DNA of 64,000 bases from Hyphobacterium sp. CCMP332 (GTDB taxonomy: Bacteria; Bacteroidota; Bacteroidia; Cytophagales; CCMP332). Both the position numbers and the translations under genes were made by a program. The DNA lies in assembly GCA_014323545.1 (NCBI GenBank), contig CP058647.1:1652001-1716000 (forward strand), written 5' to 3'. Positions 25,650-30,470 of this stretch are shown here, piece after piece (position 1 is the stretch's first letter; each line of letters begins with the position of its first letter). The notes beneath the pieces were generated by a model. It ran no database searches, was not told the DNA's origin, and saw only the letters and a program-made list of their open reading frames with translations.

Positions 25650-26260
25650 AAAAACCATATCTCATAGGGATCACGGGAGGAAGCGCTTCAGGCAAAACAT
25701 TATTTATAAATGAATTAATAAACCGATTCACTTCTAAAGAAATTTGTCTGGTTTCTCAGGATCACTATTATCTGGACCGTGAAAATCAGCCAAAAGATAA
25801 AAACGGTATCGAAAACTTTGATCTGCCTCAATCCATAGATCATGAGGCTTTTTATAAGGACTTAGGTGAGTTGCGCTCGGGCCGTATTGTTCGGCGAAAA
25901 GAATACACTTTTAATAACCCTGATAAAATCCCTGATACCCTAACTTTCTCCCCTGCTCCTATTATAGTAGCTGAGGGTCTTTTTGCATTTTATAAAGCAG
26001 AATATCTAAAATTGTACGATTTAAAATTATTTATTGAAGCCAGTGAACCTGTGAAGCTTATCAGAAGAATAAACAGAGATAATAATGAAAGGGGATATGA
26101 TATCAATGATGTTTTATATCGCTATGAAAATCATGTTTATCCAACCTATGAAAAATATGTAAAGCCTTTTCAATCTGAAGCCGATATCATCATTCCTAAT
26201 CACACTTCTTTCGAAAAGGCTTTGAATGTGCTAGTTTCGCATCTTAAAACTTTTTTATAA
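25646..26260 (+). CDS. udk: Uridine kinase
   Basis: A 204-residue P-loop nucleoside kinase of the uridine kinase/phosphoribulokinase family that phosphorylates uridine and cytidine in pyrimidine salvage. The Walker A is GITGGSASGKT at residues 8-18. Substrate residues follow in SQDHYYLDR, FDLPQSIDHE and IIVAEGLFAF. The Arg-rich lid is LIRRINRDNNERGYD. The start is TTG (25646), overlapping the rdgB stop; no ATG lies between it and the P-loop. The stop overlaps the next ATG by one base. Confidence 0.95.
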   Translation: MKKPYLIGITGGSASGKTLFINELINRFTSKEICLVSQDHYYLDRENQPKDKNGIENFDLPQSIDHEAFYKDLGELRSGRIVRRKEYTFNNPDKIPDTLTFSPAPIIVAEGLFAFYKAEYLKLYDLKLFIEASEPVKLIRRINRDNNERGYDINDVLYRYENHVYPTYEKYVKPFQSEADIIIPNHTSFEKALNVLVSHLKTFL

Positions 26261-26955
26261 TGGCCTCTCAAAAGTTTGCTGTTATCGGTTTGGGAATATT
26301 TGGAACCTCTATCGCAAAAACTCTTGCTGCTCGTGGGGCGGAGGTACTAGCCGTAGATTTCGATCATGATAAAGTAGAATCACTTAAGGATGACGTTGCG
26401 CATGCCGTTACCATGGATTCAACTGATTTAAAATCTTTGTTGTCACAGAATCTTCAGGATATGGACGCTGTGGTTGTCGCCATTGGTGAAAATTTTGAAG
26501 GTTTGCTTATGACGACAGTGCTTTTACTGGAATTAAAAGTAAAGCGGGTTATAGCAAGGGCGGCCAATGCTCAACAATACGCGATACTCCAAAAAGTAGG
26601 TGTTCAGGAAATTTTATCTCCGGAAGGAGAGGTTGGTAAAACCGTGGCAGAAATGTTATTGCAACCTACCATGAAATCTTTTCTTCAATTGCCTGATGAG
26701 TACGAAATTGTTGAAATCAAAACACCAAAAAAAGTTGTGAATAAAACCCTGGGCCATCTTGGACTTCGTGAAAACTATCACTTAAATCTCATAACGGTAA
26801 AACGAACCTTTGAAGAAAAGGTGAAAGGCAAGTTTCAGGAAGTACAACATATAGTAGGTGTTCCCCATGGAGAAACACTTCTTTACGACACCGACATTTT
26901 AATTATAATGGGTAAACACAATGATATAGCACGCTTTGTTGAAATAAATACCTAA
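26260..26955 (+). CDS. ktrA: TrkA/KtrA-type potassium uptake regulatory protein
   Basis: A 231-residue RCK protein. The N-terminal Rossmann fold is FAVIGLGIFGTSIAKTLAARGAEVLAVDFD, with GxGxxG near residues 9-14 and a terminal Asp for the nucleotide ribose. The RCK_C domain (about 145-225) begins SFLQLPDEYEIVEIKTP. It would bind NAD(H) or ATP/ADP as a ring and gate a membrane TrkH/KtrB K+ channel, which is not encoded in this window. It is the last gene of the trmN6 run; a new promoter follows. Confidence 0.93.
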   Translation: MASQKFAVIGLGIFGTSIAKTLAARGAEVLAVDFDHDKVESLKDDVAHAVTMDSTDLKSLLSQNLQDMDAVVVAIGENFEGLLMTTVLLLELKVKRVIARAANAQQYAILQKVGVQEILSPEGEVGKTVAEMLLQPTMKSFLQLPDEYEIVEIKTPKKVVNKTLGHLGLRENYHLNLITVKRTFEEKVKGKFQEVQHIVGVPHGETLLYDTDILIIMGKHNDIARFVEINT

Positions 26956-26965
26956 GTTAAAATGC

Positions 26966-26995
26966 TTGTATGCTAAATAATATTACATACTTTTG
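26966..26995 (+). promoter_or_regulatory. Consensus promoter for the secDF leader ORF
   Basis: TTG at 26966-26968, a spacer of exactly 19 bases, and TACTTTTG at 26988-26995 give a full match to the Bacteroidota TTG-N19-TAnnTTTG promoter. Transcription should start around 27000-27003, leaving only a few bases before the ATG at 27006, so the mRNA is nearly leaderless. Confidence 0.75.
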
Positions 26996-27005
26996 CAAGC
27001 CCTAA

Positions 27006-27347
27006 ATGAAAAGATTAACTCTTTACATATCAATTCTTTGTCTCATTTCGTTGAGTGTTTCCATGGCCGTGCCCGAATTGCACGTCCAAAAGGAAAAGGT
27101 ACAGTCTGAAAAAGAGACTTTACCACAACAAGAAGAATCTGATACGGAAAATCTTGATATCAGTACATCATCAGAAGCCATAATTTCTTCTTTTCAATTT
27201 AGTGTTTCGCAGACATTCTCCCTTTCCCCAAAATTATTTCTGGTTTCTAAAATCGACAGGACCAGCATTTCTTTTATCTTAAGAGACTTTTCAATTCTTA
27301 CCTGGAAAAAGCTTTTTACTAAAATCATACAGGTACATGGGCCATAA
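27006..27347 (+). CDS. Small secreted leader ORF upstream of secDF; candidate arrest peptide
   Basis: A 113-residue ORF that matches no family I know. Residues 1-21 are a signal peptide (MKRLTLYISILCLISLSVSMA), then an acidic Gln/Glu/Ser linker to about 58 and a beta/hydrophobic stretch. The C-terminus is basic and aromatic: F95-S-x-x-x-W100, then KKLFTKIIQVHGP, with Gly112-Pro113 directly before the stop. It has its own consensus promoter and lies 57 bases upstream of secDF with no terminator between. Secreted short ORFs ahead of Sec genes (SecM before secA, VemP before secDF2) stall the ribosome and sense export. This one has that layout, and its FSxxxW and final GP recall SecM. Function as an arrest peptide is inference. 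Confidence 0.6.
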   Translation: MKRLTLYISILCLISLSVSMAVPELHVQKEKVQSEKETLPQQEESDTENLDISTSSEAIISSFQFSVSQTFSLSPKLFLVSKIDRTSISFILRDFSILTWKKLFTKIIQVHGP

Positions 27348-27404
27348 GCGTCTTTTCTAAGCCCCGCTCTTAAAAATATTTTCTCAAAAATTTAATAGAA
27401 TAAA

Positions 27405-30400
27405 ATGAAAAACAAAGGATTTGTGGTCGCATTGACCATTGTTATCACATTACTGTGTGTATATTATTTATCATTCACATTTGTTTCCAGAAATGTAGCG
27501 AAGGAAGCAACAGAATTTGCCAAAGATTCAACCGGAACAGTTGATTTTGGCCGCAAGCAAAAATACCTTGACTCACTATGGACAGCACCGGTATACAATT
27601 TGTTGGGCTTGGAATTCACCCTTAAGGAAGTTAAACAAACCGAGTTAAATTTTGGACTTGACCTTCAGGGAGGAATGCATGTCACGCTTGAGGTTTCACC
27701 CATAGAAATCATCAAGACCATGGCGGGAAATAGCACCGATCCCAAATTTAATGAGGCACTTAAAAATGCTCGTGAAGCCCAAAGAAACAGTCAGGATAAG
27801 TTTATAGATTTATTTTATACCGAGTATCAGAAAATTAATCCGGGTATAAAGCTTAGTTCTTATTTTTCCAATACGGCCAATAGAGGTCGAATCGACTATT
27901 CATCAACAGATGATGAAGTATTGAAAGTTGTTGGCGCTGAAATAGATGATGCCATCGACAGAACTTTTACAATTCTTCGCACGCGTATTGACAAATTTGG
28001 CGTAACGCAGCCAAATATTCAGCAGCTTGAAGGGACCAACAGAATACAGGTTGAGCTTCCGGGCGTTGACAACCCGGAAAGAGTAAGAAAATTATTACAA
28101 GGTGTTGCAAAATTGGAATTTTTTGAGGTTTATGAACCCAATGAATTCTTAGAATTTTATGCACAAGCTAATGACTATCTCGTAGAAAAGGAAAAAGCAG
28201 AAAAGGCTTTGGAAAAAGGTAACGATTCTGAAGGGAGTGATCTCAGCACTGAATCAGGCGACTTAGAAATCTCTGATGAACCTTTGACCTTAGATATTGA
28301 CGAGGATTTGGATGAAAATCTGGCATTGTTGGAAGAAGATACTACTGAGTCAGTTACAGATGGATTGGGTTTTGAAGAAGACAGCAGTTCTGATGCACTT
28401 GCTTTGGACTCGGGCATATCAGCTCAAGACAGCCTTGCTCAACAGGAATATTCTATTTTGTTAACCGGGGTGGATCCGAACAGCGGGAGATTATTTTTTC
28501 CTGGAAAAGATACTGCCGAGATTAATGAAATAATGCGCAGTCCAAAAATCAAAGCATTTTTTCCGCCCAATTTGGAATTTCTTTGGTCGGTTAAACCCAT
28601 TGGCACTTCACAGGCAGGAGAAGAAATATTTGAACTCTTCCCAATTAGAAAAGGCAGAAACGGAAAAGCGCCTTTGGAAGGTGATGTTATTACTAATGCC
28701 AATAGCGATATATCTCAGGACGGAAGAGGATATGAGATCAATATGCAAATGAATTCCCGTGGAGCGAAAGTCTGGAAGCGATTGACTGCGGAAAATATCG
28801 ATCGCAAAATTGCTATTGTCCTCGATAACAGAGTTTATTCTGCTCCAACTGTACAAAATGAAATTCCTGGTGGACGATCGGCAATTTCAGGGGCTTTTAC
28901 TCTGGAAGAATCAAAAGATCTTGCCAACATCTTAAAAGCAGGGGCATTACCAGCACCGGCCAGGATTGTGGAAGAAGCTATTGTTGGATCCACATTGGGT
29001 GATGAATCCATTCGTCAGGGCATTACATCCATTTTAGCCGGTCTTGTGCTGGTGATTTTGTTTATGGTGCTATATTATAACAAAGGTGGTTTTGTAGCAG
29101 ACATTGCGCTTTTTATAAATATATTTTTCATTCTTGGAATACTGGCTCAGTTAAACGCAGCACTTACGTTACCAGGTATTGCGGGAATAGTATTGACTAT
29201 CGGTATGTCTATTGATGCCAACGTGCTCATCTTTGAAAGAATCAGGGAAGAACTGCGGGCTCAGAAATCACTTTTAAATGCCATCAAACTGGGTTATGAA
29301 AAAGCATTTAGCTCTATTCTGGATTCAAATGTAACCACTTTCCTTACCGGGGTAATTCTGTATACTTTTGGTTCAGGGCCAGTTAAAGGATTTGCAGTTA
29401 CTTTAATGATTGGTATTGCTTGTTCTTTCTTCTCCGCTGTTTTTATAACAAGAGTTATCGTGGAATGGATGACAAGAAAAAATAAAGAGGGGGGGATTAA
29501 TTTTTCAACCTTTATTTCTAAAAACCTTTTGTCCGATTTGAACCTGAATATTATTGGAAAAAGAAAAATGGCTTATATCGGTTCAACTATTCTCATTATT
29601 TTCGGATTATCCACTATTTTCCTTCAGAATGGATTGAATCTTGGTGTGGATTTTACAGGAGGTAGGTCTTTTGTTGTTCAATTTGATGAGCCGGTTTCAG
29701 TTCCTGATGTTCGGACCAATTTGTCGAATAGTTTTGATAATTCCAGTGTGGAAGTAAAGACATATGGTTCAAATAATACTATCAAGATAACCACAGGTTA
29801 TTTAGTTGATGATGAATCTGCGGAAGCGGATGAAAAGGTGAATGCCTCTTTGATGTCTGGCCTGGATGAATACAAAGATCAGAATCCTCAGGTTTTAAGC
29901 TCATCGAAAGTGGGCGCAACCATTGCTGATGACATCAAAAATACCGCACAGGAGTCGGTTATATTTTCTCTGATTGTCATCTTCCTTTACATTTTAATAA
30001 GGTTTAGGAAATGGCAATTTGGTCTGGGTGCAATCGTGGCATTATTTCACGATGTACTTGTGGTGCTCTCAATGATGTCTATTATGCGGCTTTTAGGTGT
30101 GGCTTATGAAGTTGATCAGGTTTTTATTGCCGCCATGTTGACTATTATTGGTTATTCCATCAATGATACCGTGGTTGTTTTTGACCGTGTAAGAGAGTAT
30201 TTGCAGGAGCATTTTAAATCAAACCTTGCAGAAACACTGAACTTGTCAATTAACAGTACTTTAAACAGAACTGTGATGACTTCATTAACAACATTATTGG
30301 TGGTATTGATTCTTTTCATATTTGGTGGTGAAGCCTTAAGAGGATTTTCATTTGCGCTTTTGATTGGAATCTTAGTTGGTACATATTCTTCCATATTTAT

Positions 30401-30470
30401 AGCTACACCGATTGTTGTTGAAACTTCTAAGAAACAATTGATTGCCGATGCTAAAAAGGCAGCTAAATAG
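27405..30470 (+). CDS. secDF: Fused protein translocase subunit SecDF
   Basis: A 1021-residue fusion of SecD and SecF, the normal form in Bacteroidota. The SecD half has a first membrane helix (residues 8-28), FGLDLQGGMHVTLEV near 80, a long periplasmic domain with an acidic low-complexity insert (about 265-345), and five helices from 540 with IAGIVLTIGMSIDANVLIFERIREEL. The SecF half begins at about 720 (ISKNLLSDLNLNIIGKRKM), with LGVDFTGGRSFVVQF and GYSINDTVVVFDRVRE. It uses the ion gradient to pull proteins across the membrane. It is preceded by a candidate export-sensing leader ORF and followed by a strong terminator. Confidence 0.97.
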   Translation: MKNKGFVVALTIVITLLCVYYLSFTFVSRNVAKEATEFAKDSTGTVDFGRKQKYLDSLWTAPVYNLLGLEFTLKEVKQTELNFGLDLQGGMHVTLEVSPIEIIKTMAGNSTDPKFNEALKNAREAQRNSQDKFIDLFYTEYQKINPGIKLSSYFSNTANRGRIDYSSTDDEVLKVVGAEIDDAIDRTFTILRTRIDKFGVTQPNIQQLEGTNRIQVELPGVDNPERVRKLLQGVAKLEFFEVYEPNEFLEFYAQANDYLVEKEKAEKALEKGNDSEGSDLSTESGDLEISDEPLTLDIDEDLDENLALLEEDTTESVTDGLGFEEDSSSDALALDSGISAQDSLAQQEYSILLTGVDPNSGRLFFPGKDTAEINEIMRSPKIKAFFPPNLEFLWSVKPIGTSQAGEEIFELFPIRKGRNGKAPLEGDVITNANSDISQDGRGYEINMQMNSRGAKVWKRLTAENIDRKIAIVLDNRVYSAPTVQNEIPGGRSAISGAFTLEESKDLANILKAGALPAPARIVEEAIVGSTLGDESIRQGITSILAGLVLVILFMVLYYNKGGFVADIALFINIFFILGILAQLNAALTLPGIAGIVLTIGMSIDANVLIFERIREELRAQKSLLNAIKLGYEKAFSSILDSNVTTFLTGVILYTFGSGPVKGFAVTLMIGIACSFFSAVFITRVIVEWMTRKNKEGGINFSTFISKNLLSDLNLNIIGKRKMAYIGSTILIIFGLSTIFLQNGLNLGVDFTGGRSFVVQFDEPVSVPDVRTNLSNSFDNSSVEVKTYGSNNTIKITTGYLVDDESAEADEKVNASLMSGLDEYKDQNPQVLSSSKVGATIADDIKNTAQESVIFSLIVIFLYILIRFRKWQFGLGAIVALFHDVLVVLSMMSIMRLLGVAYEVDQVFIAAMLTIIGYSINDTVVVFDRVREYLQEHFKSNLAETLNLSINSTLNRTVMTSLTTLLVVLILFIFGGEALRGFSFALLIGILVGTYSSIFIATPIVVETSKKQLIADAKKAAK

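Follow-up and report, generated by a model that had tools for sequence, protein, structure and literature searches.

Judged by sequence comparison, the open reading frame directly upstream of secDF in the window (the whole 64,000-nucleotide stretch of Hyphobacterium sp. CCMP332 DNA analysed here) is a natural His-Gly-Pro (HGP) member of an already published class of leader peptides, uDF_NAP-stop (Fujiwara et al. 2024, Nat Commun 15:2711; PMC10987492), and it very probably encodes a stalling, export-monitoring arrest peptide of secDF. The ORF itself, its position, its family-wide tail and its promoter are established directly here, while stop-codon stalling and the dependence on residues -3 and -1 (counted back from the stop codon) have been established by others for relatives. 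A sequence-only reading of this DNA had proposed that such a sensor would be new for the fused secDF of Bacteroidota, a claim overtaken by the publication in 2024 of 396 secDF uORFs from 400 Bacteroidota genomes, grouped by their shared C-terminal proline (PMC10987492).

The leader ORF and its transcript

The 113-residue ORF and the positions of F95, W100, G112 and P113 described by the sequence-only reading were recovered exactly (Table 1), as were a signal-like N-terminus, MKRLTLYISILCLISLSVSMA, recognized by hydropathy alone, and the lack of a known family, with no match above cutoff in a Pfam and NCBIfam scan of the 113 residues. The linker is rich in Glu and Gln, and the peptide ends in W100-K-K-L-F-T-K-I-I-Q-V-H-G-P113. 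Among the 195 window ORFs of at least 50 residues, this leader is the single one that ends in [NQHKR][AG]P. The product of the downstream gene also matches SecD_SecF_C, SecDF_P1_head, SecD_1st and Sec_GG, as a Bacteroidota-type fused SecDF; in this genome its N-terminal periplasmic region is interrupted by a long acidic insertion (window 28140-28440, EKGNDSEGSDLSTESGDLEISDEPLTLDIDEDLDENLALLEEDTTESVTDGLGFEEDSSSD).

Table 1. Positions of the leader, its parts and its neighbours in the window, with leaders found away from secDF in other genomes
Feature	Positions	Strand	Basis or remarks
TrkA-type gene upstream of leader	26260-26955		
Bacteroidota (sigma-ABfr type) promoter	26966..26995	+	sequence; TTG 26966-26968, 19 nt, TACTTTTG 26988-26995
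Leader ORF, 113 aa, natural HGP-stop member of uDF_NAP-stop class	27006..27347	+	ATG, TAA; sequence and family comparison
N-terminal signal-peptide-like segment, residues 1-21	27006..27068	+	hydropathy maximum 2.42 over 15 residues
Central segment S-E-A-I-I-S-S-F-Q-F, residues 56-65	27171..27200	+	alignment of leaders
Putative arrest tail L103-F104-T-K-I107-I108-Q-V-H111-G112-P113-stop (TAA)	27312..27347	+	C-terminal position-specific conservation
Gap between leader stop and secDF, 57 nt	27348..27404	+	rich in A and U; neither a Shine-Dalgarno nor a terminator-like site
secDF, fused protein translocase subunit, presumed regulated gene	27405..30470	+	NF009585, 1301 bits
Leaders away from secDF, family f10			L172, L173, L257-L262, L265, L267-L270, L273-L275, L279, L280, L296
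Leaders away from secDF, family f5 (G006 and G054)			L168-L171, L186, L187

The promoter lies right before the uORF, with TACTTTTG starting 18 nt before the leader ATG. This placement recurs: a TAnnTTTG -7 element is found 12-30 nt before the ATG of 66/92 leaders collected across the order (see below), before none of the 92 secDF starts and before 1.4% of other ATGs. When the published numbering of the -7 element, with its T at -12 (PMC6847099), is applied to TACTTTTG, transcription is predicted to begin around 27000, which leaves six bases ahead of the ATG and would make the mRNA nearly leaderless (a 5' UTR of ~6 nt); this is unusually short, since the leader exceeds 10 nt in 87% of the transcripts predicted for F. 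johnsoniae (PMC6847099). No promoter was found before secDF and no terminator-like site in the 57-nt gap; because of this arrangement, we infer that leader and secDF share one message. The earlier statement that the ORF directly precedes secDF on one transcript is correct as to position, 57 nt upstream of the fused gene, and as to the transcript is supported by the promoter placement.

Tail conservation and class membership

We found secDF N-termini in 190/194 genomes of the same order (Cytophagales) and read the upstream DNA of 110 loci, 92 of which have a leader before secDF, with the tail in gapless register. These leaders are same-strand ORFs of 110-200 aa that stop 57-295 nt upstream of secDF and end in [N/Q/K/H]-[A/G]-P-stop, the terminal triplet being preceded by L-F-x-x-x-I. 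As this count was filtered on the tail, with residues -1, -2 and -3 part of the selection, the test was redone with a tail-blind set (ORFs 100-205 aa long, hydrophobic at the N-terminus and stopping at most 320 nt from secDF): a Pro-ending ORF is present at 90/91 loci, compared with 4.7% in other frames of the same DNA. The importance that the sequence-only reading gave to the terminal Pro is borne out. P-1, A/G-2 and N/Q/K/H-3 each occur in 92/92 leaders, all three having been used for selection; outside the selected triplet, I-6 (73/92), F-10 (68/92) and L-11 (60/92) stand out, and both I-6 and F-10 are present in the window leader.

The contrast between tail and linker proposed earlier as a check came out clearly. 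Family-weighted information at -1, -2 and -3 amounts to 4.3, 4.0 and 2.9 bits, and at -6, -10 and -11 to 3.1, 3.4 and 2.2 bits, whereas positions -16 to -40 have about 0.4-1.1 bits, with a further aromatic or hydrophobic tendency at -14 (F 37, L 20, W 5) and -19 (F 21) of the 92 leaders. In the alignment most leaders are 10-20% identical to the window leader overall. Such a combination, a body that drifts and a tail anchored at the stop codon, is the signature of arrest peptides. The window tail matches a family tail kept across 15 families of the order. The two nearest relatives, which belong to the same family (G001, G002), have a leader at the same place, ending in TLFRQIISRNAP-stop (LFRQIISRNAP), which, aligned ungapped with the window end KKLFTKIIQVHGP-stop (LFTKIIQVHGP), has L-11, F-10, I-7, I-6 and P-1 in common. 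A check on DNA only, for F...I..NAP-stop, gave about 110 matches in the 194 order genomes, the majority directly upstream of secDF, compared with about 15 for the reversed pattern. The central motif [DE]A[VIFLAT][VIFLAT] occurs in 47/92 leaders.

The loci without a leader are 11 of family f8, five of f21 and one of f3, those of f8 and f21 being in reduced genomes (0.9-1.9 Mb), so some lineages can do without the leader; another locus (G028), ending in RAP, was left out of the 92. A phylum-wide profile search with the leader alignment gave clear matches inside the order only, and class-wide the tail pattern F...I..NAP-TAR is near control level outside the order, so that the tail in this form does not extend to other orders. 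The search for a further HGP or NAP leader in the window's own genome returned none that was convincing. In genomes with two secDF copies each copy has its own leader (L216/L225 in G054, L271/L272 in G593, L263/L264 in G574). The leaders stop at TAG in 43/92 cases, compared with 34/165 long ORFs in the fetched loci (p 2e-5), and at TGA in 6/92; a preference for RF1-read stops is possible, weakened by the many f10 leaders that end in TGA.

In the published work, about 30-50% of uDF_NAP-stop product stayed as peptidyl-tRNA in E. coli PURE translation, and more than 50% when B. subtilis ribosomes were used (PMC10987492). A toeprint of the tested representative placed the stop codon in the A site; direct fusion to lacZ-alpha yielded chiefly full-length product, and mutating -3 and -1 of the Asn-bearing representative weakened the arrest (PMC10987492). 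The in-frame lacZ fusions in that paper's main text (PMC10987492) are an assay that does not suit a stop-codon arrest. The window leader shares the following features with the class: a small uORF with no family match, 57 nt 5' of a Bacteroidota SecDF; an N-terminal localization signal (by hydropathy alone, 2.42 over 15 residues); P113-TAA at a C-terminus conserved among homologues (92 in register); and a spacer longer than 30 residues, here 93 after the hydrophobic segment. A further point of agreement with the class is the F-x-x-x-I-x-x-N-A-P tail of the relatives surveyed here. What differs is the literal label, with H-G-P in the window in place of N-A-P, and stalling of this variant is a prediction. 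Two residues call for caution, Gly at -2 and also His at -3, where the published member has an Asn whose mutation weakened stalling; yet natural leaders repeatedly have H, Q or K at -3 and G at -2 (-3: N 58, Q 22, K 7, H 5; -2: A 85, G 7 of the 92 leaders), and since departures at -3 are this common, His is probably tolerated in the window leader.

Comparison with other arrest peptides separates what was right in the earlier proposal from what was not. The idea of an arrest peptide, carried by an exported secDF leader with a conserved tail, is very likely right, whereas the SecM-style reasoning behind it fails. F-x4-W within the last 30 residues occurs in the window leader alone of the 92 (0/91 relatives), so F95-x4-W100 is not a SecM-like element, and the conserved residues are L-11, F-10 (F104), I-6, -3, -2 and P-1 rather than F95 and W100. 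Similarly, the SecM-type Gly-Pro elongation stall gives way to an expected termination arrest like that of the published class, with the stop codon in the A site. SecM (E. coli, secA) is alike in being an exported leader with a Gly-Pro near its end and a stall relieved by pulling, the last a prediction for the window; it differs in that it arrests elongation through FxxxxWIxxxxGIRAGP, a motif absent from the window leader, and lies upstream of secA. Membership of the SecM family was rejected, since beyond F95-x4-W100 the window has Lys at the Ile position, no GIRAGP, a spacing two residues longer, and secDF as its downstream gene. VemP (Vibrio, secDF2) is also an exported leader that regulates a secDF gene; its arrest motif, HRIxGWKETNAMYVxLNxx as quoted in PMC7897499, is absent from the 113 residues, which have no similarity to it, and this membership was rejected too. 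The same holds for the RQH family (RAPP-like; a four-residue motif, R/Q/H-A/G-P-P or similar, close to the C-terminus), as the window HGP is followed by a stop and not by Pro or Gly. A further parallel, uA_NSP-stop (Sphingobacteriaceae, secA; PMC10987492), shares with this class an exported leader, Asn at -3, Pro at -1 and a stop codon in the A site, and is set apart by its position upstream of secA and by other tail residues, among which a Lys at -5 matters.

From the predicted stall to SecDF

By analogy with the published members, we infer that the HGP variant stalls, that export pulling releases it and that secDF is induced when it does not. A nearly leaderless mRNA would carry leader and secDF, and the signal peptide would target the leader to Sec. 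Once Ile-Ile-x-x-His-Gly-Pro has been read and the A site holds the stop codon, peptide release would be blocked by the nascent tail inside the exit tunnel; pulling by Sec on the chain would relieve the block and let the ribosome leave. Where export is slow, the ribosome would stay just upstream of secDF and SecDF synthesis would rise. How it would rise may be through TnaC-like shielding from Rho or through a direct effect on initiation, which we rate about equal.

TnaC (E. coli tnaCAB) arrests at termination: its C-terminal Pro occupies the P site while the A site holds the stop codon. The window leader has no homology to TnaC, which senses tryptophan, is not exported and acts by transcription attenuation. 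A transcriptional output, in which the ribosome at the Pro-stop shields the RNA from Rho or blocks a terminator, is nonetheless a tentative possibility, given the like arrest at a stop codon after a C-terminal Pro. C exceeds G in 67/92 gaps (window gap UCUUUUCUAAGCCCCGCUCUU), and the 60 nt after the leader stop are the most structured of six stretches tested (mean z -1.15); this base bias, however, increases further immediately upstream of secDF and may there have a role in initiation, and Rho dependence is not readable from sequence. Terminator-like hairpins occur in 7/92 gaps compared with 0.7 in shuffles, and the conserved k-mers of the gaps are AU-rich and terminator-arm words only. An intrinsic terminator as a general feature was rejected at this frequency, most gaps, the window's included, having none.

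An output by translation only, in which the stalled ribosome opens RNA that hides the secDF start as for SecM and VemP, we hold to be just as doubtful. The arrest peptide of Alteromonas secDF2 works in this way (PMC10987492), and in the minimum-energy fold of the window the HGP-stop codons are base-paired to the first codons of secDF, in the region of its start. Nevertheless, the window gap folds no better than its shuffles (z=+0.45), masking the ribosome footprint raises accessibility of the secDF start no more than in shuffles (gain 0.008 vs 0.010, p=0.42, 89 loci), the footprint pairs with the gap no more than it does in shuffles (5.28 vs 5.85), and Bacteroidetes are without Shine-Dalgarno sequences (PMC6847099). 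Sequestration of a Shine-Dalgarno or start region freed by the stalled ribosome was rejected, the folding tests having given no signal.

Leaders before other transporters

Leaders of the same kind, judged by sequence, were also found away from sec genes. In family f10, 19 genomes have a leader away from secDF that is 117-166 aa long, begins with a hydrophobic segment and ends in a tail like FEHQIAINAP or FGHHIAINAP; 18/19 precede a YitT and/or MMPL gene, the exception (L270 in G630) having no clear downstream gene in the stretch read. Family f5 (G006, G054) has leaders with tails like LFSSLILINAP located 284-603 nt before NhaD-like, CPA (Na/H exchanger), NDH-2/NhaD and MFS/Na-Ca exchanger genes. 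The central EAVV-type motif of secDF leaders is also present in some of these non-secDF leaders. Single NAP-stop leaders before an RND adaptor and pump (G163, L152/L176) and before an MFS transporter (G584, L277) may be chance or further cases. In the literature searched, NAP-stop leaders outside sec genes were not found, and reuse beyond sec genes has been published for RAPP-type peptides (PMC12992588).

These leaders also bear on the alternative that the window ORF encodes a small exported protein of an ordinary kind, such as a periplasmic or membrane peptide associated with SecDF, which lies in the secDF operon by coincidence and does not stall. It has a signal peptide, and the EAVV-like central motif kept in some leaders could reflect a folded or membrane function, yet there is hardly any conservation in the body, in contrast to the last 11 residues, which run right up to the stop codon; stalling of the class is published; and the same tail stands before unrelated transporters on different bodies, which together make such a protein improbable. 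A spurious ORF, to which the missing database family match might point, is practically negligible and already contradicted by the comparative data, with position, promoter, signal and tail conserved in 92 loci.

On the preferred reading, an export-monitoring arrest peptide, the fused secDF of Cytophagales would carry such a leader nearly order-wide, in a class already published. New here are the natural variation at mutation-tested residues (N/Q/K/H at -3, A/G at -2), the conserved promoter that would make the leader nearly leaderless, and the same leader kind before non-Sec transporters. We lean towards the view that NAP-stop leaders are not limited to secA and secDF, and that export-coupled termination arrest may monitor membrane transport or energy state more widely, with the window HGP leader as one variant. 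If the transporter placement is true, termination-arrest leaders would have been reused across membrane homeostasis.
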